Source: Buchananella sp. 14KM1171
GTDB taxonomy: Bacteria > Actinomycetota > Actinomycetes > Actinomycetales > Actinomycetaceae
Direction of reading: 5' to 3'
Assembly: GCF_041380365.1 (NCBI RefSeq)
Contig: NZ_CP159981.1
Location: 1,240,001 to 1,304,000, forward strand
Length of the DNA stretch: 64,000 nucleotides
The translations under genes were made by a program, and so were the position numbers. The first letter of the stretch is position 1, and each line of letters opens with the position of its first letter. Below the pieces are notes generated by a model. The model saw only the letters and a program-made list of their open reading frames with translations, was not told where the DNA came from and did not search any database. Shown piece after piece: positions 1,679 through 54,335 of this stretch.

Positions 1679-1740
1679 CAGGCCATTTTGCCACCCCGGC
1701 GGCCGGACGACTTGGCGGGCCGGGCGAGGACGGTGGGATG

Positions 1741-1786
1741 GGCGGGAGCGGGCGTGAGGCGTGGGCGGGAGCGGGCGTGAGGCGTG
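1741..1786. repeat. two perfect 23-bp tandem repeats
   Basis: Two adjacent identical 23-base units (1741-1763 and 1764-1786), rich in GGCGGGAGCG. They lie in the 178-bp gap between the start of the EamA gene and the end of the TM2 gene. They may be replication slippage, and no function is visible. Confidence 0.8.
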
Positions 1787-1856
1787 GGCCGCAGGCTGCA
1801 GGCCGGGCGTGGGGCCGGCGGCATGGGCTTGCCCGCAGCACCGGGGACCGGCGCGG

Positions 1857-2273
1857 TCAGAGGACCAGGCGCTGGCCGTCCGCGTCGGTCTCGTAGATGC
1901 CCTTGCGCATCGCGACATTCAGGGTGGAGAAGACCGACCAGATCGAATTCGCGATCAGGAAGTAGCGGGGGTAGTTCACGACCTCCTGCAAGAAGCGCAG
2001 GCGGCCAAGCTGCCCACTGCGGTAACCGAACTCTGCCACGTCCTCAGCTGCGTCCACCAAGGCGTAGCCGATGTAAAGCATCAGCGCCACAGAGACCAGC
2101 GTTACCAACAGACGCGTGTATCCCTTGCTCTTGAAGCCCAGGTAGAAGTCTCCGAAACCCAGCGGGCCGGTAAACAACATCAACATCACCGCGACGGGCA
2201 TCGAGCGCCGCGTGTCAAAGGAATCCCCATCAACCTCGGACTGGTAAAGCTCGAAACGCGAGTGGTCAGACAC
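1857..2273 (-). CDS. TM2 domain-containing membrane protein
   Basis: A small membrane protein of about 138 residues. AVMLMLFTGPLGFGDFYLGF is the TM2 signature (first helix, then a G-x-x-x-F-Y-L-G turn), followed by a second helix around VTLVSVALMLYIGYALVD. Family function is unknown; many members are small inner-membrane proteins. The start is the GTG at 2273-2271. An AGGAGG sits five bases upstream of it, whereas the GTG at 2279 overlaps that AGGAGG and is unlikely. The last third (YPRYFLIANSIWSVFSTLN) adds a third moderately hydrophobic stretch. Confidence 0.8.
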   Translation of the reverse strand: MSDHSRFELYQSEVDGDSFDTRRSMPVAVMLMLFTGPLGFGDFYLGFKSKGYTRLLVTLVSVALMLYIGYALVDAAEDVAEFGYRSGQLGRLRFLQEVVNYPRYFLIANSIWSVFSTLNVAMRKGIYETDADGQRLVL

Positions 2274-2610
2274 GGGCACCTCCTGGGATCGTGGCTTTCA
2301 CCACACACCCTATGGACCTGTTCGGGTCCCCGGCAAGGAGAAACGGCCCGGCTGGGGATAGGGCTGGCAGGCAGACAGCTGGGGACGCGACCGGCGGGTG
2401 CGTGCCGGCCCAGCCGTCCCTCGATGCGCCGAGACTTGCCCAACCCTCACAAAACTTGTCCTTGGCGGGGTGGCTAATGACAAGGCCCGGCGCGGTTTGA
2501 CAAGTTTCGGCGGGGAAGCTCGGTGCCACGGCGCCTACGCAGGGTTGGCGGGCACCCGAACGGTGGTGTTCGGGCGACCCGGCAGCCCCCGACCGTACAA
2601 GAGTGAGCTT

Positions 2611-2662
2611 GGGGTACATGTGACCGCTTGGTGCCGTGGCCCCGAGCGGTCACATGTACCCC
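2611..2662. repeat. dispersed palindromic element, copy A
   Basis: A perfect 18-bp inverted repeat, GGGGTACATGTGACCGCT (2611-2628) with its complement at 2645-2662, around a 16-base loop. Homologous flanks extend the unit to roughly 2590-2686. The flank TGCAACATTTGCGAG reappears in opposite orientation at copy B (28016-28067). Related units form the tandem array at 50089-50411. Intergenic; no open reading frame. Confidence 0.85.
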
Positions 2663-2807
2663 GATGCAACATTTGCGAGTTCGGGGTTAAAGGCAGGGAG
2701 GTCGGGGTTAAAGGCAGCAATGCGTGTACGCCAAGCGCCGGCCAGCACCAGCACCCGCACCGGTGGTGATCGGGCAGCTTTGCCGCCCTCCAACAAACCG
2801 CAATTGC

Positions 2808-2842
2808 CTCGGGGTAGCACTGACGTGCTACCCCGAGAGTTT
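2808..2842 (+). terminator. T-tailed hairpin on the + strand, no gene upstream
   Basis: A perfect 13-bp stem, CTCGGGGTAGCAC (2808-2820) with its complement at 2825-2837, a TGAC loop, then AGTTTTT. It has the form of an intrinsic terminator for rightward transcription, but no rightward gene precedes it. Confidence 0.5.
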
Positions 2843-2892
2843 TTGGCTGGCGCTACGCCGTCGCGCGGGACCGCGCACGGCGCGCACCTGCC

Positions 2893-2936
2893 AAAAACGC
2901 CGAGTGGGGAGCAGAAAAACCTGCTCCCCACTCGGC
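2893..2936 (-). terminator. intrinsic terminator after tRNA-Ala
   Basis: A perfect 16-bp stem (GCCGAGTGGGGAGCAG at 2899-2914 with 2921-2936), loop of six, followed on the - strand by TTTTT (2897-2893). It starts 11 bases after the tRNA-Ala 3' end and ends the tRNA transcript. Confidence 0.85.
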
Positions 2937-2947
2937 GCAATTGTTTG

Positions 2948-3020
2948 TGGAGCCTAGGGGACTCGAACCCCTAACCCCCTGCTTGCAAAGCAGGTGCGCT
3001 ACCAATTGCGCCAAGGCCCC
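2948..3020 (-). tRNA. tRNA-Ala (anticodon TGC)
   Basis: A 73-base cloverleaf with anticodon loop CTTTGCAAG, so TGC. The acceptor stem GGGGCCT pairs with AGGCTCC and contains the G3:U70 pair that marks alanine tRNAs. The T-loop is GTTCGAGTC and the discriminator is A. CCA is not encoded. It lies 35 bases downstream of tRNA-Ile on the same strand, and the pair next to gyrA is common in actinobacteria. Confidence 0.97.
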
Positions 3021-3055
3021 GAGTCCTACTCGATCAGGCGATCGAAGGGATTGAG

Positions 3056-3129
3056 TGGGCCTAGCTGGACTCGAACCAGCGACCTCTTCCTTATCAGGGA
3101 AGCGCTCTAACCGACTGAGCTATAGGCCC
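3056..3129 (-). tRNA. tRNA-Ile (anticodon GAT)
   Basis: A 74-base cloverleaf beginning GGGCCTATAGCTCAG, with anticodon loop CTGATAA (GAT), T-loop GTTCGAGTC and discriminator A. CCA is not encoded. It is first in the tRNA-Ile/tRNA-Ala pair, downstream of the gyrBA-DUF3566 block. Confidence 0.97.
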
Positions 3130-3213
3130 TCACCGCACCGGAACGTGCTGGATGAGACTACCGCACCTTCCCGGGCACCACCAAATCGATACCCGGGAAA
3201 GTGCGGCAGATAA

Positions 3214-3606
3214 CTATTCGTCCGTCAGGGTGACGTGGATGCCACCCACCAGCGCGGCCGACAGGTTGTACAGGAACGCCCCGAGCGTGGCCAGCGCGGT
3301 GAACAGGATCGTGTTCACCACGCCGATCGCGGTCGCGGCCGCCACCACGCGGTTGAACTCCGTGTAGGCCAGCAGGTTCAGCAGCGAGTCGGCGCCCACG
3401 GCCGTGACCAGGTCGCGGATCTGCGCGAACACCTGCATGGAGTCCAGCACCTTCCAGATGAAGGCCGCCGCCACCACGCCCATGATCGCGAGCGCGACGC
3501 TGAGCAGGAACACCATCTTCATGATCGACCAGGCATCCACCTTGGCGATCACCAGGTTCACGCGGCGCGGCTCGTCAGCTACAACTACTTCTTCGCTCTG
3601 GCTCAC
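3214..3606 (-). CDS. DUF3566 membrane protein
   Basis: A 130-residue protein of the DUF3566 family, typically found just downstream of gyrA in actinobacteria. A hydrophilic N-terminus leads into RRVNLVIAKVDAWSIMKMVF, then two transmembrane stretches (about residues 33-55 and 85-115). Its molecular role is unknown; the position suggests co-transcription with gyrase. It begins with GTG 22 bases after the gyrA stop. Confidence 0.88.
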   Translation of the reverse strand: MSQSEEVVVADEPRRVNLVIAKVDAWSIMKMVFLLSVALAIMGVVAAAFIWKVLDSMQVFAQIRDLVTAVGADSLLNLLAYTEFNRVVAAATAIGVVNTILFTALATLGAFLYNLSAALVGGIHVTLTDE

Positions 3607-3628
3607 CGTTGCTCCGTCCTATCTGGGC

Positions 3629-6262
3629 CTAGTTAGAAGTTACCGCAGACTCGCCGCCCTCACCGGCTACTTCCACAGGCACGACGTCGCCGCCCTGCCC
3701 CTGCTCCCCCGCAGCCGCCCCCTGGCCGGCGCCCTCGTCGTCCTCGTCCTCGGCGGGCTCCAGGGAGCGGGCCACGGCGATGATGCGGTCGCCGTCGTCG
3801 GGACGGGCGAAGGTGACGCCCTGGGTGGTGCGGCCGGTGCGGGAGACCTCGGCAACACGAGAGCGCACGATCTTGCCGCCCTCCATGATCACCAGCACCT
3901 CGTCGTCCTCGCCGGTGATGAGGGCGCCGACCAGGCTGCCACGCTCTTCCACCAGGTTGGCCACCTTGATACCCAGGCCGCCACGGCCCTGCACCCGGTA
4001 CTGGTCCACTGCGGTGCGCTTGGCGAAACCACCCTCGGTGACCACGAACAGGTCCGCGTCGGGGCGCACCACGTCCATGCTCAGCAGCTCGTCGTCCTCG
4101 CGGAAGCGCATGCCGGTCACGCCCGAGGTGGCGCGGCCCGTGGGGCGCAGGCTCTCGTCGGAGGCCGTGAATCGCAGCGACTGCCCGGCGCGGCTGACCA
4201 GCAGAACGTCGTCCGTGGCATTGGCCAGCACGGCGGCCACCAGCTGGTCGGACTCGCCCTCGTCGTCGGAGCGCAGGTTGATCGCGATGACGCCGCCGGA
4301 ACGGTTGGAGTCGTAGGCGCTCAGGGCGGTCTTCTTCACCAGGCCGCGGCGGGTGGCCAGCAGCAGGTAGTCGCTCTGGTCGTAGTCCTTGATGGCGAGC
4401 ACCTGGGTGATGGCCTCGTCCGGCTGGAAGGCCAGCAGGTTGGCCACGTGCTGGCCCTTGGCGTCGCGGCCGCCCTCGGGCAGCTCGTAGGCCTTGGCGC
4501 GGTAGACGCGGCCGAGGTTGGTGAAGAACAGCAGCCAGTGGTGGGTGGTGGTGACGAAGAAGTGCTCCACCACGTCGTCCTGGCGCAGCGCCGCCCCGCG
4601 CACGCCCTTGCCGCCGCGCCGCTGGGAGCGGTAGTTGTCGGTGCGGGTGCGCTTGACGTAACCGGAGCGGGTGATGGTGACCACCACGTCTTCCTCCGGG
4701 ATCAGGTCCTCCACGGACATGTCACCGTCGTAGGGCAGGATCGTGGTGCGGCGCTCGTCGCCGTACTTCTCCACGATCTCGGCCAGCTCCTCGCTGACCA
4801 GGGCGCGCTGGCGGGCGTCGGAGGCCAGGATCTCTCGCATGTCGGCCACCTTGGCCTCCAGCTCGGCGTGCTGGTCCAGGATCTTTTGGCGCTCCAGGGC
4901 GGCCAAGCGGCGCAGCTGCAGCTCCAGGATGGCGTTGGCCTGCACCTCGTCCACCTTGAGCAGCTCCATCAGGCCCGTGCGGGCCTCCTCCACGGTGGGG
5001 GAGCGGCGGATCAGGGCGATGACCTCGTCCAGCGCGTCCAGGGCCTTGAGGTAGCCCTGCAGGATGTGGAGGCGCTTTTCCGCCTCGCGCAGGCGGAAGC
5101 GGGTGCGCCGCTGGATCACGTCGAGCTGGTGCTTGACCCAGTGGTGCACAAAACCGTCCAGGGACAGGGTGCGCGGCACGCCGTCCACCAGGGCCAGCAT
5201 GTTGGCCGGGAAGGCGGTCTGCAGGGCGGTGCGCTTGTAGAGGTTGTTGAGCACCACCTTGGCCACGGCGTCGCGCTTGAGCACGATCACCAGGCGCTGG
5301 CCGGAGCGGCCGGAGGACTCATCGCGCAGGTCGGCGATCCCCTGCAGGGAGCCGTCCTTGATGAACTGGCCGATCTTCTCAGCCAGGTTGTCCGGGTTGA
5401 CCTGGTAGGGCAGCTCGGTGACCACCAGGCACTGGCGGCCGTGGATCTCCTCCACCTCCACCACGGCGCGCTGCACGATCGAGCCGCGGCCGGTGCGGTA
5501 GGCGTCCTCGATGCCCTTGCGCCCCAGGATGGTGGCGGCGGTCGGGAAGTCGGGGCCCTTGATGCGCTCCATGAGCGCCTCCAGCAGCTCCTCGCGGCTG
5601 GCCTCCGGGTGGTCCAGGTACCACTGGACGCCTTCGGCCACCTCGCGCAGGTTGTGCGGCGGGATGCGGGTGGCCATGCCCACCGCGATACCCTCGGAGC
5701 CGTTGACCAGCAGGTTCGGGAAGCGCGCCGGCAAAACGGTCGGCTCCAGGGAGCGGCCGTCGTAGTTGGGCGTGAAGTCGACCGTCTCCTCGTCGATGTC
5801 GCGCACCATCTCCATGGCCAGGGGCGCCATCTTGCACTCGGTGTAACGCGGCGCGGCCGGGCCCAGGTTGCCGGGGGAACCGAAGTTGCCCTGTCCGGCC
5901 ACCAGCGGGGCGCGCATGGACCACGGCTGGACCAGGCGGGCCAGGGCGTCGTAGATCGCGCCGTCGCCGTGCGGGTGGTATTCACCCATCACGTCGCCGA
6001 CCACGCGGGCGCACTTGCTGAAGGCTGCGGTGGGTCGGTAGCCGCCGTCGTACATCGCGTACAGGACGCGGCGGTGCACCGGCTTCAGGCCGTCGCGCAC
6101 CTCCGGTAGGGCGCGGCCCACGATCACGCTCATTGCATAGTCCAGGTAGGACTTTTGCATCTCGCTCTTCAGGTCCACCGCCCGGATGCGGTCTTCGCCG
6201 CCGACGTTGCCGCCGTCCGCCCCCATCACCGTGGTGGTTTCCTCGTTTAGCTGCTCGCTCAT
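3629..6262 (-). CDS. gyrA: DNA gyrase subunit A
   Basis: GyrA, 877 residues, the breakage-reunion subunit of the A2B2 gyrase that introduces negative supercoils. Visible are the N-terminal [20 protein letters not shown], the DNA-cleaving tyrosine in [10 protein letters not shown] (Tyr140), the GyrA-box region with [10 protein letters not shown], and C-terminal beta-pinwheel blades. The quinolone-determining segment reads [11 protein letters not shown]: the position of E. coli Ser83 / M. tuberculosis Ala90 is Gly101, and the Asp87/Asp94 equivalent is Asp105. An acidic tail of about 45 residues follows the last blade. It lies 15 bases after gyrB, clearly one operon. Confidence 0.98.
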
Positions 6263-6277
6263 GTTCTTGGCTTTTCC

Positions 6278-8296
<2,019 letters not shown>

Positions 8297-8459
8297 CTAT
8301 TCGGGGCAAGAACCGGCCCCAAAATAGGACCTCGTCGATTCTACCCGCTTTTGCGGCCCTGAACCACCGTGGGGCTAGGTGGGTGGCACCGGCGGGGTCC
8401 AGGGCCTTCTAGGGGCCGCCACGGCCCTGCCTGGCTTCGCGGCCCGCCGCCCGCCCGGC

Positions 8460-9119
8460 TCAGCCGTAGGTGTCCCTGGGGCCGCGCCCGCGCACGCTGC
8501 GCGGCCCGTGCTTCCAGGAGGGCGCGGCCGGGCCCAGGATCTGCAGGTTGGTCACCACGCCCTCCCCCGCGATCTGCGCGATGTTGCGCAGCAGCTGCGG
8601 GGTGAGCATGCGCAGCTGGGTGGCCCAGGCGGTGGAGTCCACGCGGATCACCAGCATGGAGTTCTCGAAGGTCTCCACCCTGGTGTGGGCGGCGATCTGC
8701 TCACCCACGATCGCGTCCCATTGGGAGGCCACGCGCGCCAGCGCTACCGCCCCGCTCAGGCCCAGGCGCTCCAGCAGGCGGTCGCTCATCGCCCCGAGCT
8801 TCTTGGGGGTGCGCCGGGACTTGCCCGGCCCGCTGCCCCAGAACTTCACTCCGGGCGGGGGCTGGTAGCCGCCCTCGTTTTCGATCTGCTCGCCCTCCTC
8901 GAGGGCGGCGAGCCCGGCGGTGCGCTTGCGCAGGCTGGTGCGCTTGTCTCCGCGCTCGAAGGCGGCGGCGCGGAACCTATCCAGGCTGCGCAGCGCCAGC
9001 CCGGCCACGTCCGCCTCGGTCGGTTCCCAGGCCTGGCGCGGCAGGCCGCCGGTGGCCGACGCTCCACCCGCCTGCCCCCGTACCTCGGCCTGCCCACAAC
9101 TGTCCTGCTCGCCGTTCAC
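8460..9119 (-). CDS. DUF721/DciA-family protein, probable DnaB helicase loader
   Basis: A 219-residue protein. The DUF721 (DciA) domain occupies about residues 105-205 (WDAIVGEQIAAHTRVETFEN, LVIRVDSTAWATQLRML). DciA is the ancestral factor that loads DnaB in bacteria lacking DnaC/DnaI; in actinobacteria the gene sits between recF and gyrB, as here. The first 100 residues are low-complexity and poorly conserved. Its ATG overlaps the recF stop (ATGA), so the two are translationally coupled. The last codons (KHGPRSVRGRGPRDTYG) contain a 27-base sequence repeated exactly near 43.6 kb. Confidence 0.88.
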   Translation of the reverse strand: MNGEQDSCGQAEVRGQAGGASATGGLPRQAWEPTEADVAGLALRSLDRFRAAAFERGDKRTSLRKRTAGLAALEEGEQIENEGGYQPPPGVKFWGSGPGKSRRTPKKLGAMSDRLLERLGLSGAVALARVASQWDAIVGEQIAAHTRVETFENSMLVIRVDSTAWATQLRMLTPQLLRNIAQIAGEGVVTNLQILGPAAPSWKHGPRSVRGRGPRDTYG

Positions 9120-10411
9120 TGCGGCCCGCCCGGCGGGGATTCCTCGGTTTGCTCACCGGTGCCCTCTCCCCCCGCACTACCCACGCTGCCCCGGCCGTCG
9201 AGGCTGGTGACCTGCGAGCCGGCCACCGCGAACCTGGCCGCATCCAGCTCCGCTGGCACGTCCTCCCCCACGGCGGCGGTGATGAAGACCTGCTCCACCC
9301 CGGCCACCACGCCCACCAGGGCGGCGCGGCGCTTGGCGTCCAGCTCGGCAAAGACGTCGTCCAGGATCAACACCGGGTCGCCGTCCAGGCCGCGCAGCAA
9401 CTCGAAGGAGGCCAGGCGCAGCGCCAGCGCGCAGCTCCAGGACTCGCCGTGGCTGGCGTAGCCCTTGGCGGGCAGTCCGTTGAGGCTGATCGTAAGGTCG
9501 TCGCGCTGCGGGCCCACCAGGTTGACTCCCCGGCGCAGCTCGTCGGCGCGCCTGGCGGCGATGGCCGCGCGCAGCACCCGGCGCAGTTCGTCCAGCTCCG
9601 CCGCGCCGGCCCCCGCGGCCTCTGGCGGGGCGTAACCGCCCCGGGCGGCGTGCTCCCGGGCGCTGACCACCAGCTCCAGGCGCAGCAGGTCCTGGCTGTC
9701 AGCCACCTCGCGGTAGTAGCGCTCGGCCAGCGGGACCAGTTTTTCCACCAGCTCCAGGCGGGCGGCCAGGAGCTGGGCGCCCAGCTCCACCAGCTGCTCG
9801 TCCCACACGGCCAGCAGCGATTCCTCCGCCGCGCCGTACCCGGCATCGGGCCCGGTCCCGTAGCCGCCGCGAGGGCCACGACCGGTCCCGGCCAGTTGCT
9901 TGAGCAGGGCGCCGCGCTGGCGCAGCACCTTGTCCAGGTCCGCCTTCACGCCCGCCAGGCGGGGGGTGTGCTGGATCAGCAGGGCGTCCAGGAAGTCGCG
10001 CCTGCCGGCCGGGTCTCCCTTGACCAGGGAGAGGTCTTCGGGGGCAAACAGCACGGTGCGCAGCCGTCCCAGCAGCTCGCGCGGGCGGCAGGTGCCCCGG
10101 TTCAGGCGGGCCCGGTTGGCCCGCCCGGCCACGATCTCCAGCTCCAGCACCTCGGCGCGCTCGCCGCGCCGCACCTTGGTCCGCACCATCGCCCCGCCGG
10201 GCTGGGGGCCGCCGTCTAGGGCGCGGCGTACCAGGGCAGCGTCGGCCGCCACCCGGTGGGAGGAGAAGGTGGACAGGTAGACCAGGGACTCGACGATGTT
10301 CGTCTTGCCCTGCCCGTTGCGGCCGATGAAGGCCACCACCCCGGGCGGGAACTCCAGGACCAGGCGCCGGTAGGAGCGAAAGTCGTCCAGCGCCAGGTTG
10401 GAGACGTACAC
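9116..10411 (-). CDS. recF: DNA replication and repair protein RecF
   Basis: RecF, 431 residues, an ABC-type ATPase that helps load RecA at gaps in SSB-coated DNA. It shows the Walker A GRNGQGKTN near the N-terminus (FIGRNGQGKTNIVESL), the KGYASHGESWSCALALRLAS signature region and Walker B PVLILDDVFAELDAKRR. It starts with GTG three bases after the dnaN stop. A Gly/Glu-rich tail of about 30 residues and a small insert around residues 165-180 are not conserved features of the family. Confidence 0.97.
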   Translation of the reverse strand: MYVSNLALDDFRSYRRLVLEFPPGVVAFIGRNGQGKTNIVESLVYLSTFSSHRVAADAALVRRALDGGPQPGGAMVRTKVRRGERAEVLELEIVAGRANRARLNRGTCRPRELLGRLRTVLFAPEDLSLVKGDPAGRRDFLDALLIQHTPRLAGVKADLDKVLRQRGALLKQLAGTGRGPRGGYGTGPDAGYGAAEESLLAVWDEQLVELGAQLLAARLELVEKLVPLAERYYREVADSQDLLRLELVVSAREHAARGGYAPPEAAGAGAAELDELRRVLRAAIAARRADELRRGVNLVGPQRDDLTISLNGLPAKGYASHGESWSCALALRLASFELLRGLDGDPVLILDDVFAELDAKRRAALVGVVAGVEQVFITAAVGEDVPAELDAARFAVAGSQVTSLDGRGSVGSAGGEGTGEQTEESPPGGPQ

Positions 10412-12166: not shown

Positions 12167-13594
12167 CTAACGGGCGCGGGCCTGCTGCTTGATCCGGTTG
12201 GTCAGCTCGGTGACCTGCGTGTACGTCTCGCGCTTGGTCTTCATCTGCTCGGTGATCTTGCGGTAGGCGTGCATGACCGTGGTGTGGTCGCGCCCGCCGA
12301 ACTGCTGACCGATCTTGGGCAGCGAGAGGTCGGTGAGCTCGCGGCACAGGTACATGGCGATCTGGCGGGCGTTGACCAGCACGCGCGAGCGGTCGGTGGA
12401 GCGCAGCGCCTCGATCGTGATCTGGAAGTACTCCGCCGACTGCGCGATGATCGAGGAGGCCGTGATCACCTCATCCTCGGTGGAGATCAGGTCCTTCAAG
12501 ACCAGCTCCGCCAGCGCCAGGTCCACCGGCTGCTTGTTCAGGTTCGCGAACGCCGAGACGCGAATCAGCGCACCCTCCAGCTCCCGGATGTTGGAGGTGA
12601 TGCGGGAGGCGATGTACTCCAGCACCTCGGGGCTGACCTCGAGGCCGGTGGCCACCGCCTTCTTGGACAGGATGGCGATGCGGGTCTCCAGGTCCGGCGG
12701 CTGCACGTCCGTCATCAGGCCCCACTCGAAGCGCGAACGCAGGCGGTCCTCGAAACCATCGAGCTGCTTGGGCGGCACGTCGGAGGTGATCACCACCTGC
12801 TTCTCGCCGTTGTGCAGCGCGTTGAAGGTGTGGAAGAACTCCTCCATCGTCTGTTCCTTGCCCTGCAGGAACTGGATGTCGTCGATCAGCAGCACGTCCA
12901 CCTCGCGGTAGCGGCGCTGGAAGGCCTCGGCGCGGTCGTCGCGGATGGAGTTGATGAAGTCGTTGGTGAACTCCTCGGAGTTGACGTACTTGACCTTCAG
13001 GTGCGGGTAGAGGTTGCGGGCGTAGTGGCCGATCGCGTGCAGCAGGTGGGTCTTGCCCAGCCCGGAGCCACCCCAGATGAACAGGGGGTTGTAGGCGCGC
13101 GCCGGCAGCTCTGCCACCGCCGTGGCGGCGGCGTGTGCGAAGCGGTTGGAGGAACCCGGCACGAAGGTCTCGAACGTGTAGGAGGGGTTCAGGCGGGAGT
13201 TGTCCGCCTCCACCGGCGCCGGCGACTCGCCGCGCTCGGTCTCCCGCGCCGCGATCCGGGAGGAAAGGGCCAGGTCCTCCTCCGGCTCCACCGGCAGCAT
13301 CGTCACCTCCTCGCGCTCCTCCCCGCTGGCCAGCGAGGGATCCACGGTCACCGCGATGCGCATGGGCCGGCCCAGCACCTGGGTGAGCGCGTCGGTGATG
13401 ATGCTGCGCGCCCGCACCTCCACGTACTCCTTGGAGAAGTTAGAGGGCACCGCCAGCAGCAGGGTGCCGTCCACGTCACCCAGGATCTTGGCGCGCCGAA
13501 TCAGACCCATCTGGCCGCTGGAGATCTTGTCTCCCTCCTGCAGCAGACGCAGGACGTCGGGCCAGCTTTCGGTAATTGGCTGCGGTGCGGACAC
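12167..13594 (-). CDS. dnaA: chromosomal replication initiator DnaA
   Basis: DnaA, about 475 residues. It binds DnaA boxes and melts the origin. Domain I begins [18 protein letters not shown] short Glu/Ser-rich linker precedes the AAA+ domain III, with Walker [17 protein letters not shown], Walker [15 protein letters not shown] and sensor SRFEWGL. Domain IV carries the box-recognition signature [14 protein letters not shown]. The start is GTG at 13594-13592 after AAAGGAG; the longer frame adds 58 residues without homology. It is transcribed away from rpmH. Confidence 0.98.
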
Positions 13595-14043
13595 GTGGGG
13601 CTCCTTTCGGCGCCCCCAAACTACCCTGCCCGCTGCCTTGCGTCCACACAGTTTTCCACAATTGGGGATTGGGGGAGGCCCCGCCCAAAGAGCCCCGAAA
13701 TCACGGAAATACGGGCTTTGCGGGCTGCCGGTTCGCTCCCCCACTTTCCACAAGGTGGTAGCTACCACTACTCACACAGTGTGGGTAGGCTAGGCAGCGC
13801 GCCGCGCGCGGCCGCCTACGGGATAGCGCCGGCGGGCAGGAGGGCCGGCAGGGCCCGGGCGAGCGGGCGGCCACCGGGCGGGAGCAATTGGCGGCCCGAA
13901 ACGGGCGAAGTGTGATCGGTGACGCGCCCGTATTTCTTGACCGGCGGCGCTTTTGCTCCCTAGCATTGAAGGCCGTTGTGCCTATCTGGGCGCTAAAGGA
14001 CCAATACCGGCGATAGACGCCCTAACTGCAAGGAGGAGTGACC
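13595..14043. promoter_or_regulatory. dnaA/rpmH divergent intergenic region
   Basis: 449 bp between divergent dnaA and rpmH. It must hold both promoters. A DnaA-box-like TTTTCCACA (13652-13660, one mismatch to TTATCCACA) lies 58 bp before the dnaA start. Weaker ones are CTTTCCACA (13744-13752) and the inverted TGTGGGTAG near 13780, suggesting autoregulation. Gene polarity flips here: leftward before it, rightward after. No gene is visible. Confidence 0.55.
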
Positions 14044-16707: not shown

Positions 16708-17357
16708 GCGAGCTAGAGCAGTTGTCGGGTCCGGCCCGCGCCTTCATGGGGGCGCGGGCCGTGCCCATGGAGGCGCTGGCGGAGTTGCTGGCGCGTGAGG
16801 GCGAGAAACGGGGCCTGATCGGGCCCAGGGAGCTGCCGCGCCTGTGGAGCCGCCACCTGCTCAATTCGGCCGCCGTGGCCGGCGTTTTTCCCTCCGGGGC
16901 ACTGGTTGCCGACGTGGGTTCCGGGGCGGGCTTTCCCGGCCTGGTGCTGGCTGTGCTGCGGCCGGACGTGGACGTGGTGCTGATTGAACCGATGCAGCGG
17001 CGGGTGGACTGGCTGGGCTACGCCGCAGACGAGCTGGGCTTGGACAACGTGTCGATCGCCCGGGCCAGGGCCCAGGAGCTGCACGGCGAGCTTCTGGCGG
17101 ACGCCGTGACGTGCAGGGCCGTGGCCTCCTTCGGTGAGCTGATCGCCTGGGTGGCGCCGCTGCTGGTGGACGGTGGCGAGTTCGTGGCGCTCAAGGGCGC
17201 TAAGGCCCAGTCGGAGCTGGACGAGGCCGTTAGCGCCGGTCTACTGAACCGGTTTAGGTTGGGTGGGGCGCGCGTGGAGGAAGTCGATCCGGTGGTGGAC
17301 GGTGAGCACATCTTCGAGGTGCCGGCCAGGCTGATCCGGGCCAGGCGGTTAGCATAG
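16704..17357 (+). CDS. rsmG: 16S rRNA (guanine527-N7)-methyltransferase RsmG
   Basis: RsmG (GidB), 217 residues, methylates N7 of G527 in 16S rRNA with S-adenosylmethionine; loss gives low-level streptomycin resistance in several bacteria. It shows ELPRLWSRHLLNSAAV, the SAM-binding ADVGSGAGFPGLVLAVLRP, and TCRAVASFGELIAWVAPLL. GTG at 16704 overlaps the jag stop, so the pair is translationally coupled. parA begins 33 bases later. Confidence 0.96.
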   Translation: MSELEQLSGPARAFMGARAVPMEALAELLAREGEKRGLIGPRELPRLWSRHLLNSAAVAGVFPSGALVADVGSGAGFPGLVLAVLRPDVDVVLIEPMQRRVDWLGYAADELGLDNVSIARARAQELHGELLADAVTCRAVASFGELIAWVAPLLVDGGEFVALKGAKAQSELDEAVSAGLLNRFRLGGARVEEVDPVVDGEHIFEVPARLIRARRLA

Positions 17358-17390
17358 GTTTGGCCGAATCCGGCAGAGAAAGGAACGCAG

Positions 17391-18320
17391 GTGACTGATT
17401 CCCTAGAGCGCTTTGCTGCGGGCGGCAGGCAGGACAGCCCGGTGGGCGCCCAGCTGGCGGCGGACATGCGGCTGCGGGCCAAGCTGGCCGGCGTCTCCTT
17501 CACTCCCCCGGCCGAGCCGCGCATCTTCACCGTCGTCAACCAGAAGGGTGGCGTGGGTAAGACAACGAGCGCCGTGAACCTGGCAGCGGCGTTCGCTGCG
17601 GGCGGGCTGAAGGTGCTGGCGATCGACTTCGACCCGCAGGGCAACGCCTCCACCGCCCTGGGCATCGAGCACCGGGTGGGGACGCCGTCAATGTACGACG
17701 TGCTGGTAGAGGAACGGACGCTGCGCGAAGTGGTGCAGCCGAGCCCGGAGGTCGAGGGTCTGTGGTGCGCCCCGGCCACGATCGACCTGACCGGCGCGGA
17801 GTTGGAGCTGGTGGCGGCGATGAGCCGCGAGCACCGGCTGCGCGCGGCCCTGAACGAGTTCTTCCGGGCCGAGGCGGAGGCCGGCGAGCGGCGCACGGAC
17901 GTGGTGGTGATCGACTGCCCGCCGAGCCTGGGCCTGCTCACGCTGAACGCGCTGGTGGCCGCGCGCGAGGTATTGATTCCGATCCAGTGCGAGTACTACG
18001 CGCTGGAGGGAGTCAGCCTGCTGAGTCGGAACATCGCGCGGATTCAGAAGCACCTGAACCCGGAGCTGCGGATCTCGACGATCCTGCTGACTATGTTCGA
18101 CGGTCGCACGCGGCTTAGCTCGGAGGTGGCGGCGGAGGTGCGAGCGCACTTCGCAGAGGAAACGTTGGAGGTGACGATTCCGCGGTCGGTGCGGATCGCC
18201 GAGGCCCCTAGTTACCAGCAAACGGTGCTGCAGTACGATCCAAAGTCGACGGGCGCGTTGGCCTACCGTGAGGCCGCGCGGGAGATCATGGCCAAGGAAG
18301 GCTGCGTGAAGAATGGCTGA
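17391..18320 (+). CDS. parA: chromosome partitioning ATPase ParA (Soj)
   Basis: ParA, 309 residues, a deviant Walker ATPase that moves ParB-parS complexes and so segregates replicated origins. VNQKGGVGKTTSAVNLAAAF is the deviant P-loop, DFDPQGNASTALG and DVVVIDCPPSLGLLTLNAL the switch motifs. About 40 residues precede the ATPase core. It starts with GTG after AGAAAGGA. Its end overlaps the parB start by eight bases. Confidence 0.97.
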   Translation: MTDSLERFAAGGRQDSPVGAQLAADMRLRAKLAGVSFTPPAEPRIFTVVNQKGGVGKTTSAVNLAAAFAAGGLKVLAIDFDPQGNASTALGIEHRVGTPSMYDVLVEERTLREVVQPSPEVEGLWCAPATIDLTGAELELVAAMSREHRLRAALNEFFRAEAEAGERRTDVVVIDCPPSLGLLTLNALVAAREVLIPIQCEYYALEGVSLLSRNIARIQKHLNPELRISTILLTMFDGRTRLSSEVAAEVRAHFAEETLEVTIPRSVRIAEAPSYQQTVLQYDPKSTGALAYREAAREIMAKEGCVKNG

Positions 18321-19842
18321 GCGGCGGGGGCTTGGGCGCGGATTGGGTGCGCTGATCCGGGACGACGAAGAGGCAATGCGGGCAAATGCGGAGCTCGGCA
18401 ATGCACAGTCCGGCTGGACGGGCGGTGGGGAACGCACGAGCCGACCGGTTGACCTCTACTTCGGTGGCGGCGACGTGCAGCGGCGCAGCGAGATATCCGC
18501 GCTGCTCTCTCCCCCGCTGAAGCGCGGCAAGAAGGACGTCGACTCTGTTTCACGTGAAACGGAGGAGAGTGGCAGGGGCGGCAAGCGAGCGACGAAGGCG
18601 CGCGCGTCGCAGGCGAAGCCGGCGGCAGCCGGTGAGACCGTTTCACGTGAAACGGGCGCTGCGGGTGCTGTGGCCGCGTCAAGCGAGGTGCTGGAGGCCC
18701 AGCGTGCCACCGCCAAGAAGAAGGTCGCATCGCCCTGCGTGCTTGAACGCGCGGGAGTAGGGCCAACGGCGGCCTCCCCCGTTTCACGTGAAACGGTTCA
18801 GGACGGTCGTGGAGAGGTCGCGAAGGCTAGCGATTCGGCGGTCGGCGCGGTTGCCGGTCCGGCGAGCGGGGAACCGGACGTTTCACGTGAAACGGAAGAG
18901 CCGGAGCTGGTGGCGGTGCCGGGCGTGTTCCTGGCGATGCTGAGCCCGGACGTGATCGTGCCCAATGCGAAGCAGCCGCGCCAGGTATTTGTGGAATCGG
19001 AAGTGGAGGAACTTGCGGCGTCGATCCGCGAGGTGGGACTGCTTCAGCCCATCGTGGTCCGCCCGCTGGCCGCTGACGACGAGCGGCGGCACAGCGGTCG
19101 CCGAGCGGGTGCGCCGGAGGACTCTGACGAGGTCATCGCCGGTGAGTACGAGCTCATCATGGGCGAGCGCCGGCTGCGGGCCTCCCAGCTCGCCGGCCTG
19201 GCAGAGGTGCCTGCGATCGTTCGCTCGACGGCGGATGAGGACATGCTGCGCGACGCGCTGCTGGAGAACCTGCATCGCGCTCAACTTAACGCGCTGGAAG
19301 AGGCGGCCGCCTACGAGCAGTTGCTGCGGGAGTTCGGTTGCTCCCAAGAGGAACTGGCGCGCCGGATCGCGCGGTCGCGGCCGCACATCTCCAACACGAT
19401 GCGTTTGCTGAAGCTGCCCGGCACGGTGCAGCGGCGCGTCGCCGAGTCCCGCATTTCCGCCGGCCACGCCCGGGCGTTGCTGGGCCTGCCCGACGCGGAG
19501 GCGATGGAGGCGCTGGCCGAGCGCATCGAGGCAGAGGGCCTTTCCGTCCGGGCGGTCGAGGAGCTGGTGGCTCAGGGCGACGAGCCCGTGGAGGAGCGGC
19601 GTGAGTACCGTCCGCGCCGGGGCGGCGGGGAGGGCGCGTTCACCGCGCTCAACTACCAGCTCGCCTCGCGCTTCGCCACGCGGGTCAAGGTGACGATGGG
19701 CGCCCGCAAGGGCAAGATCGCCATCGACTTCCGTGACGCTGAGGACCTGGAGCGCATCCTGGCGGTGCTCTCGCCGGAGATCGGCTACAAGGCGCCGGCG
19801 CCGGCGGGAGACGTTTCCGGGCAGGATGCGCCGGGAGCCTAG
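18313..19842 (+). CDS. parB: chromosome partitioning protein ParB with parS-encoding N-terminal extension
   Basis: ParB, 509 residues, a CTP-dependent clamp that loads at parS and spreads. The core starts near residue 200: QPRQVFVESEVEELAASIRE, the CTP/Arg patch MGERRLRASQ, ENLHRAQLNALEEA, the helix-turn-helix SQEELARRIARSRPHISNTM, and the C-terminal dimer domain. Family members are usually 300-350 residues. The surplus is a low-complexity stretch, residues about 35-200, holding four VSRET pentapeptides encoded by four parS palindromes. A second insert (about residues 250-275, DERRHSGRRAGAPEDSDE) lies within the core. Confidence 0.96.
   Translation: MAERRGLGRGLGALIRDDEEAMRANAELGNAQSGWTGGGERTSRPVDLYFGGGDVQRRSEISALLSPPLKRGKKDVDSVSRETEESGRGGKRATKARASQAKPAAAGETVSRETGAAGAVAASSEVLEAQRATAKKKVASPCVLERAGVGPTAASPVSRETVQDGRGEVAKASDSAVGAVAGPASGEPDVSRETEEPELVAVPGVFLAMLSPDVIVPNAKQPRQVFVESEVEELAASIREVGLLQPIVVRPLAADDERRHSGRRAGAPEDSDEVIAGEYELIMGERRLRASQLAGLAEVPAIVRSTADEDMLRDALLENLHRAQLNALEEAAAYEQLLREFGCSQEELARRIARSRPHISNTMRLLKLPGTVQRRVAESRISAGHARALLGLPDAEAMEALAERIEAEGLSVRAVEELVAQGDEPVEERREYRPRRGGGEGAFTALNYQLASRFATRVKVTMGARKGKIAIDFRDAEDLERILAVLSPEIGYKAPAPAGDVSGQDAPGA
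18547..18560. promoter_or_regulatory. parS site 1
   Basis: Exact palindrome GTTTCACGTGAAAC, the core of the bacterial parS consensus and the nucleation site for ParB. It lies within parB, in frame as Val-Ser-Arg-Glu-Thr (residues 79-83). Confidence 0.95.
18640..18653. promoter_or_regulatory. parS site 2
   Basis: Exact palindrome GTTTCACGTGAAAC inside parB, 93 bases after site 1 and in the same reading frame, again coding VSRET (residues 110-114). Confidence 0.95.
18781..18794. promoter_or_regulatory. parS site 3
   Basis: Exact palindrome GTTTCACGTGAAAC inside parB, 141 bases after site 2 and in the same frame, coding VSRET (residues 157-161). Confidence 0.95.
18880..18893. promoter_or_regulatory. 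parS site 4
   Basis: Exact palindrome GTTTCACGTGAAAC inside parB, 99 bases after site 3 and in the same frame, coding VSRET (residues 190-194), just ahead of the ParB core. Confidence 0.95.
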
Positions 19843-19886
19843 GAGCAAGCAGGGGAGCGGCCGTTCGTGGCGGCGCCGGACCAACG

Positions 19887-19900
19887 GTTTCACGTGAAAC
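19887..19900. promoter_or_regulatory. parS site 5
   Basis: Exact palindrome GTTTCACGTGAAAC in the non-coding DNA 44 bases after the parB stop, directly abutting the hairpin at 19901-19928. Confidence 0.95.
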
Positions 19901-19928
19901 GGGGGTGGATGCGCGGGCATCCACCCCC
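19901..19928 (+). terminator. hairpin terminator after parB
   Basis: A perfect 11-bp stem, GGGGGTGGATG (19901-19911) with CATCCACCCCC (19918-19928), and a six-base loop. It is followed by GCAGTCTTTCCC, a weak T-stretch. Probably ends the rightward parAB transcript. Confidence 0.6.
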
Positions 19929-20251
19929 GCAGTCTTTCCCCGAGCCGAATAATCCACAGGTTTACCCACCGAAGTGGAAAACGGAAAATCCTTTCCACAG
20001 GGAATGCACAGGGCCGAGCCCGCAGGAAGCGGGCCACGGGCCGGGGTGAGCGGGGCGGAGCGGTCGGGACGACCGACCCTTCCGCAACGACCCAGCCCCA
20101 GCGCCAAACAGCCAGCCACAATAGCCACCGGCCCCAACGTTATGTCAGGTAAGGGTCGAGAGGGGGAGCGGTCCGGGCCGCCCGCGCGGGCGGGCCCCGC
20201 CGAGCAGCGAGGAAACGGCCCTAGAAGCGCCCAGAATCCCTCCGGGTGGGC
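19929..20251. other. non-coding interval between parB and antiporter gene
   Basis: About 320 bases separating the convergent parB (+) and antiporter (-) genes. Two DnaA-box-like words (TAATCCACA 19950-19958, CTTTCCACA 19991-19999) and a GGTCGGGACGACCGACC hairpin (about 20062-20080) are visible. I see no gene. Confidence 0.6.
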
Positions 20252-22030
20252 CTAGTCATCAACCAGGCCCTCCATGCCCGCCCTGGCGGCTTCCAGGTGC
20301 ATCTCGTGGCGCACCTGGTCGGCGTCGAGCAGGCCCAGCGTGTAGCTGAACAGGCCCGCGTCCAACTTGCCGGCGTCGCGCTGCTCGATGATGGCCAGGC
20401 GCTCGGCACGGATGCGCGCCAGGGCCCACTCGATGGCCTCCACCTTGAGCTCGTCGCGTTCCTCTGCGGCGGCCACCACGTCGATCCGGTGGCACAGGTC
20501 CGCAGCGCTCGGCGCGGGCGCCCCGGCACGCCACCGCTTGCCCAGCCACTCGCGCAGATGCTCGGGGGGTTCCACCTGCCGGCCGGCGGCGTGGACCAGG
20601 TAGCGCACCTCCTCGCGCTCCTCGTGGCTGGTCACCCGCGCGGAGGTGGGGCGCAGCAGACGCACCACGAGGTTGAGGCTGCCGCCCTGCACGATGAGCG
20701 AGAACGCCGCCACCGCGAAGGCCGCGAACAGCAGCAGGGCGCGGTCCTGTGTGCCCGTGGGCAGCGTCTGCGCGGCGGCCAGGGTGACGCCGCCGCGCAT
20801 GCCGGCCCACCACATCATGGCGCCGTCGCGGGCGCCCAGGTGGGCGTCCTGGTAGTACTGGGCGTCCGAGACGCGCCTGGCCAGGCGGAAGCGGATGCGC
20901 TCGAGCCGCCGCTGGTCGATCTTGCGGGCGCCCGGGCCGGTGATCACGCCCTCCTCCATCGCGTCCAGCATGGCCGTGACCGTCTCCGCCCGGGAGGCGC
21001 GGGCCTGGCGGCGCACGGCGTTGCGGCGCATGGCACCGATCAGCGGGAAGACCACCAGCGCGCGCACGGTCAGCGCCACGGCGAGCGTGACGCCCGCCAA
21101 CACCGCTGCGTTGCCCAGGCCCTGCCCGGCGCCCCACAGCTCGTGCAGCAACGTCGAGGCCTGCAAACCCATCACCAGGAAGACGGCGGACTCCAGGATC
21201 AGGCCGATCGTCTGCCACGTCTGCTTGGCGTTGAGCCGGTGGGCGGGCGGCACGCAGCGCGCCACCTCCTTGCTGGTCACCAGCCCGGCCACCACGGCGG
21301 CCACCAGGCCGGAGGCACGCAGCTGCTCGGCCGGGACCGCCGCCAGGAAGGGGACCGTCAGGGAGATCACCGTGGAGGTGGAGGGCTCCTTGGCCTGGGC
21401 ACGCAGCCAGATCGTCACCCGGCCCACCACCCAGCCCACCAGGACCGCGCCGACCACGGCCCACAGGAAGTCCGCCCCGGCCTGCCAGATGGAGACGGCC
21501 CCGGCGGCCGCAGCCAGCGCGGAGCGCAGGATCACCAGCGCCGAGGCGTCGTTGATGAGCCCCTCGCCCTCCATGATGGTCACCAGGCGTTCGGCCACCC
21601 CCTGCTTGCGCACCACGATGGTGGCCACCGTGTCGGTGGGGCTCATGATGGCGCCCACCGCGATCCCGAGGGCGAGCGGCATGCCGGTCATGGCGCTGAT
21701 GATCGCCCCCAGCAGCACGGCGGTGACCACCACCAGCAGCACAGACAGCACCGAGATCGCGCCCAGGTTGCGCCGAAAATCCTGCACGGGCATGGCCACG
21801 GCGGTGGAGAAGACGAGCGGTGGCAGGATCACGTGCAGCACCAGGTCCGGTTCCACGTGCAGCTCGGGCATGCCGGGCACGAAGCTCACCGCAGCCCCCG
21901 CCAGCAGCAGCACCACCGGCGCGACGATGCCCACCCTCTCCCCGAGCGGTTCGGAGAACGCGATCACGAGGAGGGCGGCAACGGTAACGACGATGGCGAC
22001 TGTCATGGCCCAATTTTCCCAGGCGGGCAC
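20252..22030 (-). CDS. CPA1-family cation/proton antiporter
   Basis: An antiporter of about 592 residues of the NhaP/CPA1 family, exchanging Na+ or K+ for H+ across the membrane. About 12 helices fill residues 8-430. The transport core includes the SPTDTVATIVV stretch and GEGLINDASALVILRSAL, matching the conserved N-D pair of this family. The C-terminal 160 residues are soluble, helical and charged. GTG 22030 has GGAG eight bases upstream; ATG 22006 is an alternative that would clip the first helix. Ion specificity cannot be read. It lies about 144 bases downstream of the CYTH gene. Confidence 0.88.
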   Translation of the reverse strand: MPAWENWAMTVAIVVTVAALLVIAFSEPLGERVGIVAPVVLLLAGAAVSFVPGMPELHVEPDLVLHVILPPLVFSTAVAMPVQDFRRNLGAISVLSVLLVVVTAVLLGAIISAMTGMPLALGIAVGAIMSPTDTVATIVVRKQGVAERLVTIMEGEGLINDASALVILRSALAAAAGAVSIWQAGADFLWAVVGAVLVGWVVGRVTIWLRAQAKEPSTSTVISLTVPFLAAVPAEQLRASGLVAAVVAGLVTSKEVARCVPPAHRLNAKQTWQTIGLILESAVFLVMGLQASTLLHELWGAGQGLGNAAVLAGVTLAVALTVRALVVFPLIGAMRRNAVRRQARASRAETVTAMLDAMEEGVITGPGARKIDQRRLERIRFRLARRVSDAQYYQDAHLGARDGAMMWWAGMRGGVTLAAAQTLPTGTQDRALLLFAAFAVAAFSLIVQGGSLNLVVRLLRPTSARVTSHEEREEVRYLVHAAGRQVEPPEHLREWLGKRWRAGAPAPSAADLCHRIDVVAAAEERDELKVEAIEWALARIRAERLAIIEQRDAGKLDAGLFSYTLGLLDADQVRHEMHLEAARAGMEGLVDD

Positions 22031-52529: not shown

Positions 52530-52933
52530 TTATCCACAGCTTGTGTGTATCCCCTGGGGAAAACGAGGCGCCAATGCCTGAAAACATGCTGGAAGTTCGC
52601 TGTGGATGGTGTGGAGTGGGCGGGCGCTTTCGTCCACAGTCAGTTGCAGCGAGGGTCGTGGCGGGCGCGTGTCCGGCTTGAGCGAAACGGGTGAGCAATG
52701 CGCAAGACGCGCCCGATGCGGGCGTCTAGCTCAACCTTGGCTGGAGGGTTGTGGATAGAAAACCCGCTAATTGTCCGCATCTCAGCATTTGGAAACTGGG
52801 TGGGTATGTGAATTGAAATCCGCACGATTCCGCCACAAACTCCAGGTGGTGGGCGGCGGCAGCATCGGACAATCCCCACGTTACCCACAGGGGCGGTGCG
52901 GTTTCCCGGCACGTCGTCCACATGTTATCCACA
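52530..52933. promoter_or_regulatory. DnaA-box cluster upstream of dnaB
   Basis: Two exact TTATCCACA boxes (52530-52538, 52925-52933) and one-mismatch relatives: TCGTCCACA (52630-52638 and 52914-52922), inverted CTATCCACA (52750-52758), TTGTCCGCA (52771-52779), TTACCCACA (52881-52889). They occupy the 404 bp ahead of dnaB, with no gene between. It is denser in good boxes than the dnaA-dnaN interval. Possible DnaA-titrating or dnaB-control region; not shown to be an origin. Confidence 0.6.
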
Positions 52934-53000
52934 GGCAATTTGCGGGGGCGGAATCGAGGCGGTACCTTCGCGCGAGGCCAGCAAAGGACGGGAGGGCGCA

Positions 53001-54335
53001 ATGGACAGCAGGGACGACTTTGACCGCACGCCCCCGCAAAACGTGGAGGCGGAGCAGTCCGTGCTGGGTGCCATGCTGCTGTCCAAGGAGGCCATCAGCG
53101 AGGTCAGTGAGATCCTGCGCGCGGAGGACTTCTACAAGCCGATCCACGCGATGATCTACGACGTCATCATCTCCCTGTTCGGCAAGAACGAGCCGGCGGA
53201 CAACATCACCGTGGCCGGCGAGCTCTCTCGGCGCGGCGAGCTGGCCCGCGTGGGTGGAGCCGACTATCTGCACACCCTGGTCGCCTCGGTGCCTACCGCC
53301 GCCAACGCCATGTATTACGCGGCCCTGGTGCGCGAGCGGGCCATGCTGCGCCGCCTGGTGGAGGTGGGCACGCGCATCGTCCAGCTGGGATACGCCAGTG
53401 ACGGCGGCGATGCCTACGAGATCGTCAATCAGGCCCAGGCGGAGGTTATGCGGGCCACCGAGTCGCGCCAGCGCACCGACTACGTGCGCCTGGGGGAGAC
53501 CCTCAACCCCGTCTTCGACGAGCTGGAGGCCATCCGGGGCGGCAAGGTCAGCGAGGGAATGGTTCCCACGGGCTTCCGCGACCTGGACAACCTCACCCAC
53601 GGCTTCCACCCCGGCCAGATGATCATCGTGGCCGCCCGCCCCGGTGTCGGTAAGTCCACCTTCTCCCTGGACGTGTGCCGCCACGCCGCGATCCGCAACA
53701 ACCAGACCTGCGTGATCTTCTCCCTGGAGATGAGCGCCGCTGAGATCACCAAGCGCCTGCTGTCCGCGGAGGCGCAGGTGTTCCAGAACGCCATGGCCAA
53801 CGGCGCGCTCACCGAGGACCAGATGCTCAAGCTGGGTGACGTGATCGGTCGCATCGCCGACGCCCCGCTCTTCATCGACGACTCGCCCAACCTGACCCTG
53901 CCGGAGATCCGCGCCAAGGCCCGCCGCCTGAAGATGGAGCACGACCTGAAGCTGATCGTGGTGGACTACCTGCAGCTGATGAGCTCTGGTCGCAAGGTGG
54001 AGTCGCGCCAGCAGGAGGTCTCGGAGTTCTCCCGCGCGCTGAAGCTGCTGGCCAAGGAGCTGGAGGTGCCGCTCATCGCGGTGGCGCAGCTCAACCGCTC
54101 CTCCGAGCAGCGCTCCGACAAGAAGCCCACCATGAGCGACCTGCGCGAGTCCGGCTCGCTGGAGCAGGACGCGGACATCGTCATCCTTTTGCACCGTCCC
54201 AACTACGAGAAGGAGGACGAGCGCAAGGGCGAGGTGGACATCATCGTGGACAAGCACCGCGCCGGCCCCACCGACACGATCCCCGTGATCCACCAGGGCC
54301 ACTACTCGCGCTTCGTGGACAAGCACCTGGACTAA
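53001..54335 (+). CDS. dnaB: replicative DNA helicase DnaB
   Basis: 444 residues, hexameric helicase. The N-terminal domain PPQNVEAEQSVLGAMLLSKE is followed by the RecA-like domain with Walker A ARPGVGKSTFSLD, LKLIVVDYLQLMSS (Walker B) and SLEQDADIVILLHRP. No intein is present, unlike some actinobacterial DnaBs. ATG 53001 after GGAGGG is chosen over the longer frame from 52896, whose first 35 residues overlap the DnaA boxes and lack homology. Confidence 0.97.
   Translation: MDSRDDFDRTPPQNVEAEQSVLGAMLLSKEAISEVSEILRAEDFYKPIHAMIYDVIISLFGKNEPADNITVAGELSRRGELARVGGADYLHTLVASVPTAANAMYYAALVRERAMLRRLVEVGTRIVQLGYASDGGDAYEIVNQAQAEVMRATESRQRTDYVRLGETLNPVFDELEAIRGGKVSEGMVPTGFRDLDNLTHGFHPGQMIIVAARPGVGKSTFSLDVCRHAAIRNNQTCVIFSLEMSAAEITKRLLSAEAQVFQNAMANGALTEDQMLKLGDVIGRIADAPLFIDDSPNLTLPEIRAKARRLKMEHDLKLIVVDYLQLMSSGRKVESRQQEVSEFSRALKLLAKELEVPLIAVAQLNRSSEQRSDKKPTMSDLRESGSLEQDADIVILLHRPNYEKEDERKGEVDIIVDKHRAGPTDTIPVIHQGHYSRFVDKHLD

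Follow-up and report, generated by a model that had tools for sequence, protein, structure and literature searches.

The window, by which we mean the whole stretch of 64,000 nucleotides analysed here, carried recF-like, dnaN and dnaA genes on the minus strand, followed on the plus strand by rnpA, yidC, a jag-like gene (R3H), rsmG (GidB), parA and parB. The ParB protein comprised an N-terminal GLGRGLGALI motif, a linker predicted to be disordered, ParB_N (CTPase), an HTH and a C-terminal dimerisation domain. Its leading PDB matches included Spo0J (the best, 6sdk, E 9e-41), ParB and Noc, and the residues GERR at positions 284-287 were invariant across 25 aligned sequences. As in chromosomal ParABS systems, a ParA-type Walker ATPase gene adjoined parB, and parS palindromes lay near the presumed replication origin, 4.8-6.1 kb from the dnaA ORF to which the distance was taken (Bac_DnaA at 12167-13768). 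Judged by its domains and gene neighbourhood, the window ParB is a canonical ParB in a standard parAB locus. In the AlphaFold model, ParB residues 66-189 lacked secondary structure and scored below 50 in pLDDT, with the fourth parS site at the edge of this region, and the low linker confidence could partly reflect the thin alignment (25 rows, pTM 0.38). The gap between dnaA and dnaN held no DnaA-box-like sequence within one mismatch, and a cluster of such sequences lay at 52530-52933, close to where the dnaB ORF (52896-54335, longest reading) begins, with two exact copies of the DnaA box consensus TTATCCACA and two copies with one mismatch.

Features of the parAB locus, in window coordinates
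Feature	Coordinates	Strand	Remarks
parA, 309 aa	17391..18320	+	Pfam AAA_31 E 6e-53; overlaps parB by 8 bases
parB, 509 aa	18313..19842	+	Pfam ParB_N, HTH_ParB and ParB_C above cut-offs
ParB N-terminal linker, about residues 16-205	18358..18927	+	mostly predicted disordered; contains parS 1-4
parS 1	18547..18560		exact match; in frame, VSRET at residues 79-83
parS 2	18640..18653		exact match; in frame, VSRET at residues 110-114; aligned place in L005 is a probable decayed site
parS 3	18781..18794		exact match; in frame, VSRET at residues 157-161
parS 4	18880..18893		exact match; in frame, VSRET at residues 190-194; aligned place in L006 has one synonymous mismatch
parS 5	19887..19900		exact match; 44 bases past the parB stop codon

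A search of the window with the 14-mer GTTTCACGTGAAAC gave exact matches at the five parS positions of the table, the same five that an earlier note on this DNA had reported. That note had also described the four inner copies as sharing one frame, and all four were indeed in frame 0 of parB and read VSRET each time, so that parS here forms part of the parB coding sequence, lying in its reading frame with synonymous positions conserved. These five were the only exact copies in the genome (one contig of 2,364,007 bases), all at the parAB locus and all within 1354 bases, which agrees with the compact centromere that had been proposed. One extra genomic match with up to two mismatches lay about 472 kb away. 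Genome-wide, GTTTCACGTGAAAC matched at five sites with at most one mismatch and at six with at most two, against none and three, respectively, for a control pattern read backwards. At up to three mismatches the window held six sites, one besides the five exact ones, against a mean of 1.3 in shuffled sequence; six were reached in 1 of 100 shuffles, so that the loose matches alone are not impressive. Given their resemblance to parS and their place in a canonical parAB locus adjoining dnaA, the sites would be expected to load ParB onto the parB gene itself. A possible terminator role of parS 5 was considered: directly after it lay a strong G+C-rich hairpin (19900-19929), possibly the end of the parAB transcript, but a terminator pattern scan that required a T-run listed none there. 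No promoter-like sites were found by a sigma-70 pattern in 17300-20300.

We evaluated the frequency of this arrangement among relatives. The family comprised 213 genomes, of which 211 had ParB and 210 had exact parS, and 143 family loci were examined: the window, its two congeners (L005 and L006) and 140 among the matches listed, with seven family places (G042, G051, G111, G146, G159, G168 and G201) left out of the placement set. Five of 221 loci were dropped for a missing N-terminal motif, start or core edge (L018, L072, L148, L202 and L225), which left 216, namely 140 of the 143 family loci and 76 others. The latter were drawn from the best 80 of 112 matches of a similarity search and included many Bifidobacterium, Promicromonospora and Microbacterium; Bifidobacterium loci such as L012 and L037 had parS in this linker too. 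A class sample of 60 loci was hand-picked across families among the matches listed, and became 57 when L301, L309 and L314 were dropped. Linker edges were set by motif patterns and starts were taken as the nearest ATG rather than from gene annotation. The loci are skewed towards the ParBs most like that of the window and are related to each other, so the counts that follow are not independent. At least one linker parS was found in 91 of the 140 family loci (59 with one, 24 with two, six with three and two with four), in 22 of the 76 loci outside the family and in 10 of the 57 loci of the class sample. The arrangement of parS in parB is real, widespread among relatives and not unique to the window.

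Linkers held 133 of the 694 exact parS of the 140 family loci, and the most linker sites were found in the window and L133. Among the 32 genomes carrying at least two linker sites, the window had the largest linker share, four of five; four genomes with three of four came next. In both single-site genomes examined for placement (G060 and G114) the one exact parS lay outside the linker, so genomes with one linker site stay at a share of one half or below. On the family tree, linker parS changed between presence and absence at least 19 times, a rough minimum from a FastTree tree on which 47 of 137 inner branches were well supported and gain and loss were not separable. The family genome G005 had 19 exact parS, of which 18 were among the matches listed, all on contig C33 at 1736-10011; a run at 5668, 6060, 6451, 6839 and 7233, about 390 bases apart, suggests a repeated unit.

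The density of parS differed strongly by region. In the 140 family loci the ParB linker had 1.69 sites per kb, the rsmG-parA gap together with the N-terminal extension of parA 2.95, and the 300 bases after parB 1.57, compared with 0.055 in the parB core, 0.067 in parA, 0.014 in rsmG and none in jag or yidC; the linker was about 54 times denser than the five structured coding classes combined, and all six sites in family parB cores fell within the last nine codons. The 76 other loci gave 1.17 per kb for the linker, 2.51 for the gap and only 0.35 for the 300 bases after parB, and the likeness between linker and flanking DNA is therefore loose. Densities in the class sample were 0.68 per kb in the linker, 0.02 in the parB core and none in parA. 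A linker density like that of the flanking stretches, in a single frame, is a quantitative signature of the arrangement. In the aligned part of ParA, 19 parS were seen across the 216 loci (L007, L013, L016, L020, L021, L022, L024, L025, L027, L034, L048, L242 and seven others), all reading VSRET, and 12 of them lay at an SRE stretch aligned with residues 142-144 of the window ParA.

Of the three frames of parS, one reads VSRET, one reads FHVK and one puts a TGA in the gene. With only two open frames, four sites would be alike by chance in one case of eight, so the window alone is not surprising. It is the relatives that make the shared frame significant, since all 167 exact linker parS of the 216 loci were in frame 0, as were all 11 of the class sample. 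As loose controls, sites upstream of the aligned part of parA were divided 37 to 36 between the two open frames (with the third excluded by construction), and those upstream of the aligned part of rsmG 14 to 3. The FHVK frame is used elsewhere, with parS read as MFHVK in two Bifidobacterium rsmG genes, and in L007 jag and L230 rsmG a parS overlapped the gene end, with its inner TGA as the stop codon. A single inherited choice of frame is unlikely to account fully for the bias, given at least 19 presence changes on the tree, unless most of these changes were losses.

We consider it highly probable that the five sites are the ordinary parS of a chromosomal ParABS system, four of which lie in parB since the disordered linker is permissive DNA. 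A long disordered N-terminal linker would make little demand on amino acids, leaving its DNA as free to carry binding sites as non-coding DNA. One reading of parS would stop translation, FHVK would be hydrophobic and VSRET alone would suit a polar linker, hence the shared frame. By analogy with the ParB family, dimers would load at parS, close with CTP and slide over parAB and the neighbouring DNA, and the loaded ParB would give ParA (and SMC) a handle near the origin for segregation. Against permissive linker DNA as the whole account, 49 of the 140 family loci had no linker parS, which shows that the linker is not used throughout. Nor is disorder strictly required, as the 19 parS in the ParA core indicate that structured protein tolerates parS where the residues fit. 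The locus would be a natural case of a cis-acting DNA element written into a disordered protein region, and offers a direct way to study which positions a bacterial centromere can occupy.

A more far-reaching reading is that in this lineage the main centromere of the chromosome has moved into parB, with the linker retained in part because its DNA carries parS and placed under two demands, as polar spacer and as binding array; loading of ParB on its own gene would then provide a built-in brake and ensure joint inheritance of the centromere and its binding protein. We regard this as rather unlikely. It is more doubtful still that the inner sites serve autoregulation, with ParB clamps loaded on parB impeding its transcription and thereby keeping the amount of ParB constant. 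Four sites inside the parB frame and a fifth just past it would fit such a role, and in Pseudomonas aeruginosa raised ParB potentiates repression of promoters adjoining parS3 and parS4 (PMC5521831, excerpt). However, ParB spreads over kilobases (PMC4442127, excerpt), so that even a parS lying some hundreds of bases away from the gene would be expected to cover parB. The relatives' sites lay upstream of, inside or downstream of parB depending on the clade, and L005 had a parB without an exact inner site, which likewise speaks against this role. Autoregulation of ParB through the inner parS is at best a possibility, the evidence from other bacteria being mixed (PMC7022226, PMC5521831). Synonymous recoding would part DNA function from protein function, and the locus is also a handle on whether loading inside parB matters for expression.

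Sites within parB have a precedent. In Bacillus subtilis presumably only one of about ten parS sits in the spo0J/parB gene, whereas the window has four of five there, all in a linker predicted to be disordered. Excerpts of the published work place a parS within B. subtilis parB (spo0J) (PMC4333373) and put the number of parS bound by ParB there at about ten (PMC7022226). Corynebacterium glutamicum resembles the window in having an actinobacterial, oriC-proximal parS cluster bound by ParB (binding in the window being predicted), but there ten parS are spread over 35 kb, nine intergenic and one in trpCF (PMC7083940, excerpt), as opposed to five in 1.35 kb with four in coding DNA. In-frame parS repeats in ParB linkers were not found in the open-licence PubMed Central literature searched, and titles and opening lines of abstracts in that literature gave nothing related to VSRET; an older parS survey outside it (Livny and others, 2007) may already list sites within parB.

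The earlier note had proposed that duplication of parS grew a coding linker of about 165 residues absent from standard ParB. The size was roughly right, but a long and variable linker is normal in the family, with a median of 158 aa and a range of 54-525 in the 140 loci. Four copies in a low-complexity region would suit such growth, as would the positive rank correlation between linker length and parS number when the tree is ignored (0.24, p 0.004 in the family; 0.65 in other actinobacteria), though this correlation fits more room for sites as well as it fits growth. On the other side, the longest linker (525 aa) had no parS and a linker of 121 aa had four. Nine independent tree pairs, a small number and a weak test, showed no association: on average, length changed in step with parS presence in 1.5 pairs, against it in 2.6 and not at all in 4.9. 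Beyond the 14-mer, the flanks of the four window copies shared only two bases (GG) in all four.

The two congeners bear on the same question. L005 is B. hordeovulneris DSM 20732 (NZ_MQVS01000008.1) and L006 a metagenome assembly labelled B. hordeovulneris (JAUMWR010000057.1); both have yidC, jag, rsmG, parA and parB in the same order as the window. L005 thus shares genus, gene order and a similar linker length with the window, yet no exact parS was found in its ParB linker of 177 residues. Its stretch aligned with the second site read VSRAA, again in that frame; there the first 10 bases of parS were unchanged and three bases mismatched in total, and from its sequence this stretch is probably a decayed parS. 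A further difference from the window is that 11 exact parS, spaced by 114-824 bases, lay at 7526-12756 of L005, a stretch of about 5.2 kb after parB in which no gene-like long ORF was found by eye (ORFs of at least 110 aa); this stretch is possibly a large non-coding centromere. The congeners, the tree pairs and the flanks led us to reject the view that parS duplication made the linker grow, which we consider very improbable.

Slightly less credible again is the reverse explanation, in which VSRET itself is a functional motif of ParB, such as a partner-binding repeat, and parS a by-product. Its appeal lies in the occurrence of up to four copies and in the VSRET frame of every exact linker copy noted above. 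Yet the motif was never spelled far from parS: VSRET occurred 169 times N-terminally in ParB across the 216 loci, 167 times as exact parS and twice as parS with one mismatch. The codons used are rare in the window, where GTT, TCA, CGT and GAA made up 3.7, 1.3, 6.1 and 10.8% of the codons for their own amino acids in 13 ORFs, and the joint frequency of the four in window genes is 3.1e-6 per site. L006 had VSRET at all four aligned places; three of these were exact parS, the fourth differed by one synonymous mismatch, and a further parS lay after parB. Between the window and L006, the four sites kept 20 of 20 residues and 17 of 20 codons, compared with 61 of 142 aligned residues in the remaining linker and 26 of 61 codons at those kept residues (p 5e-7 for residues and 0.0015 for codons).

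Linker sites with one mismatch pointed the same way. Nine were in frame and none out of frame; seven of the nine changed the peptide, and the two that were synonymous are close to the 10 in 39 single non-stop changes of parS that are expected without selection on the peptide, although the sample is small. The L005 linker, moreover, has no VSRET. Taken from these comparisons, selection acts on the DNA of the linker, and the VSRET peptide would need only to be tolerated. VSRET as a peptide motif was rejected on the codons and on the relic sites with one mismatch, and VSRET repeats in actinobacterial ParB should not be taken as a protein motif.

Chance placement of a common palindrome, for which nothing speaks but the shortness of the motif and the shuffle control for loose matches, has next to no credence and is already refuted, since the pattern read backwards had no match at up to three mismatches in the linkers of the 216 loci, and base composition predicts about 0.0014 exact copies of GTTTCACGTGAAAC per genome against the five seen, all clustered at one locus.
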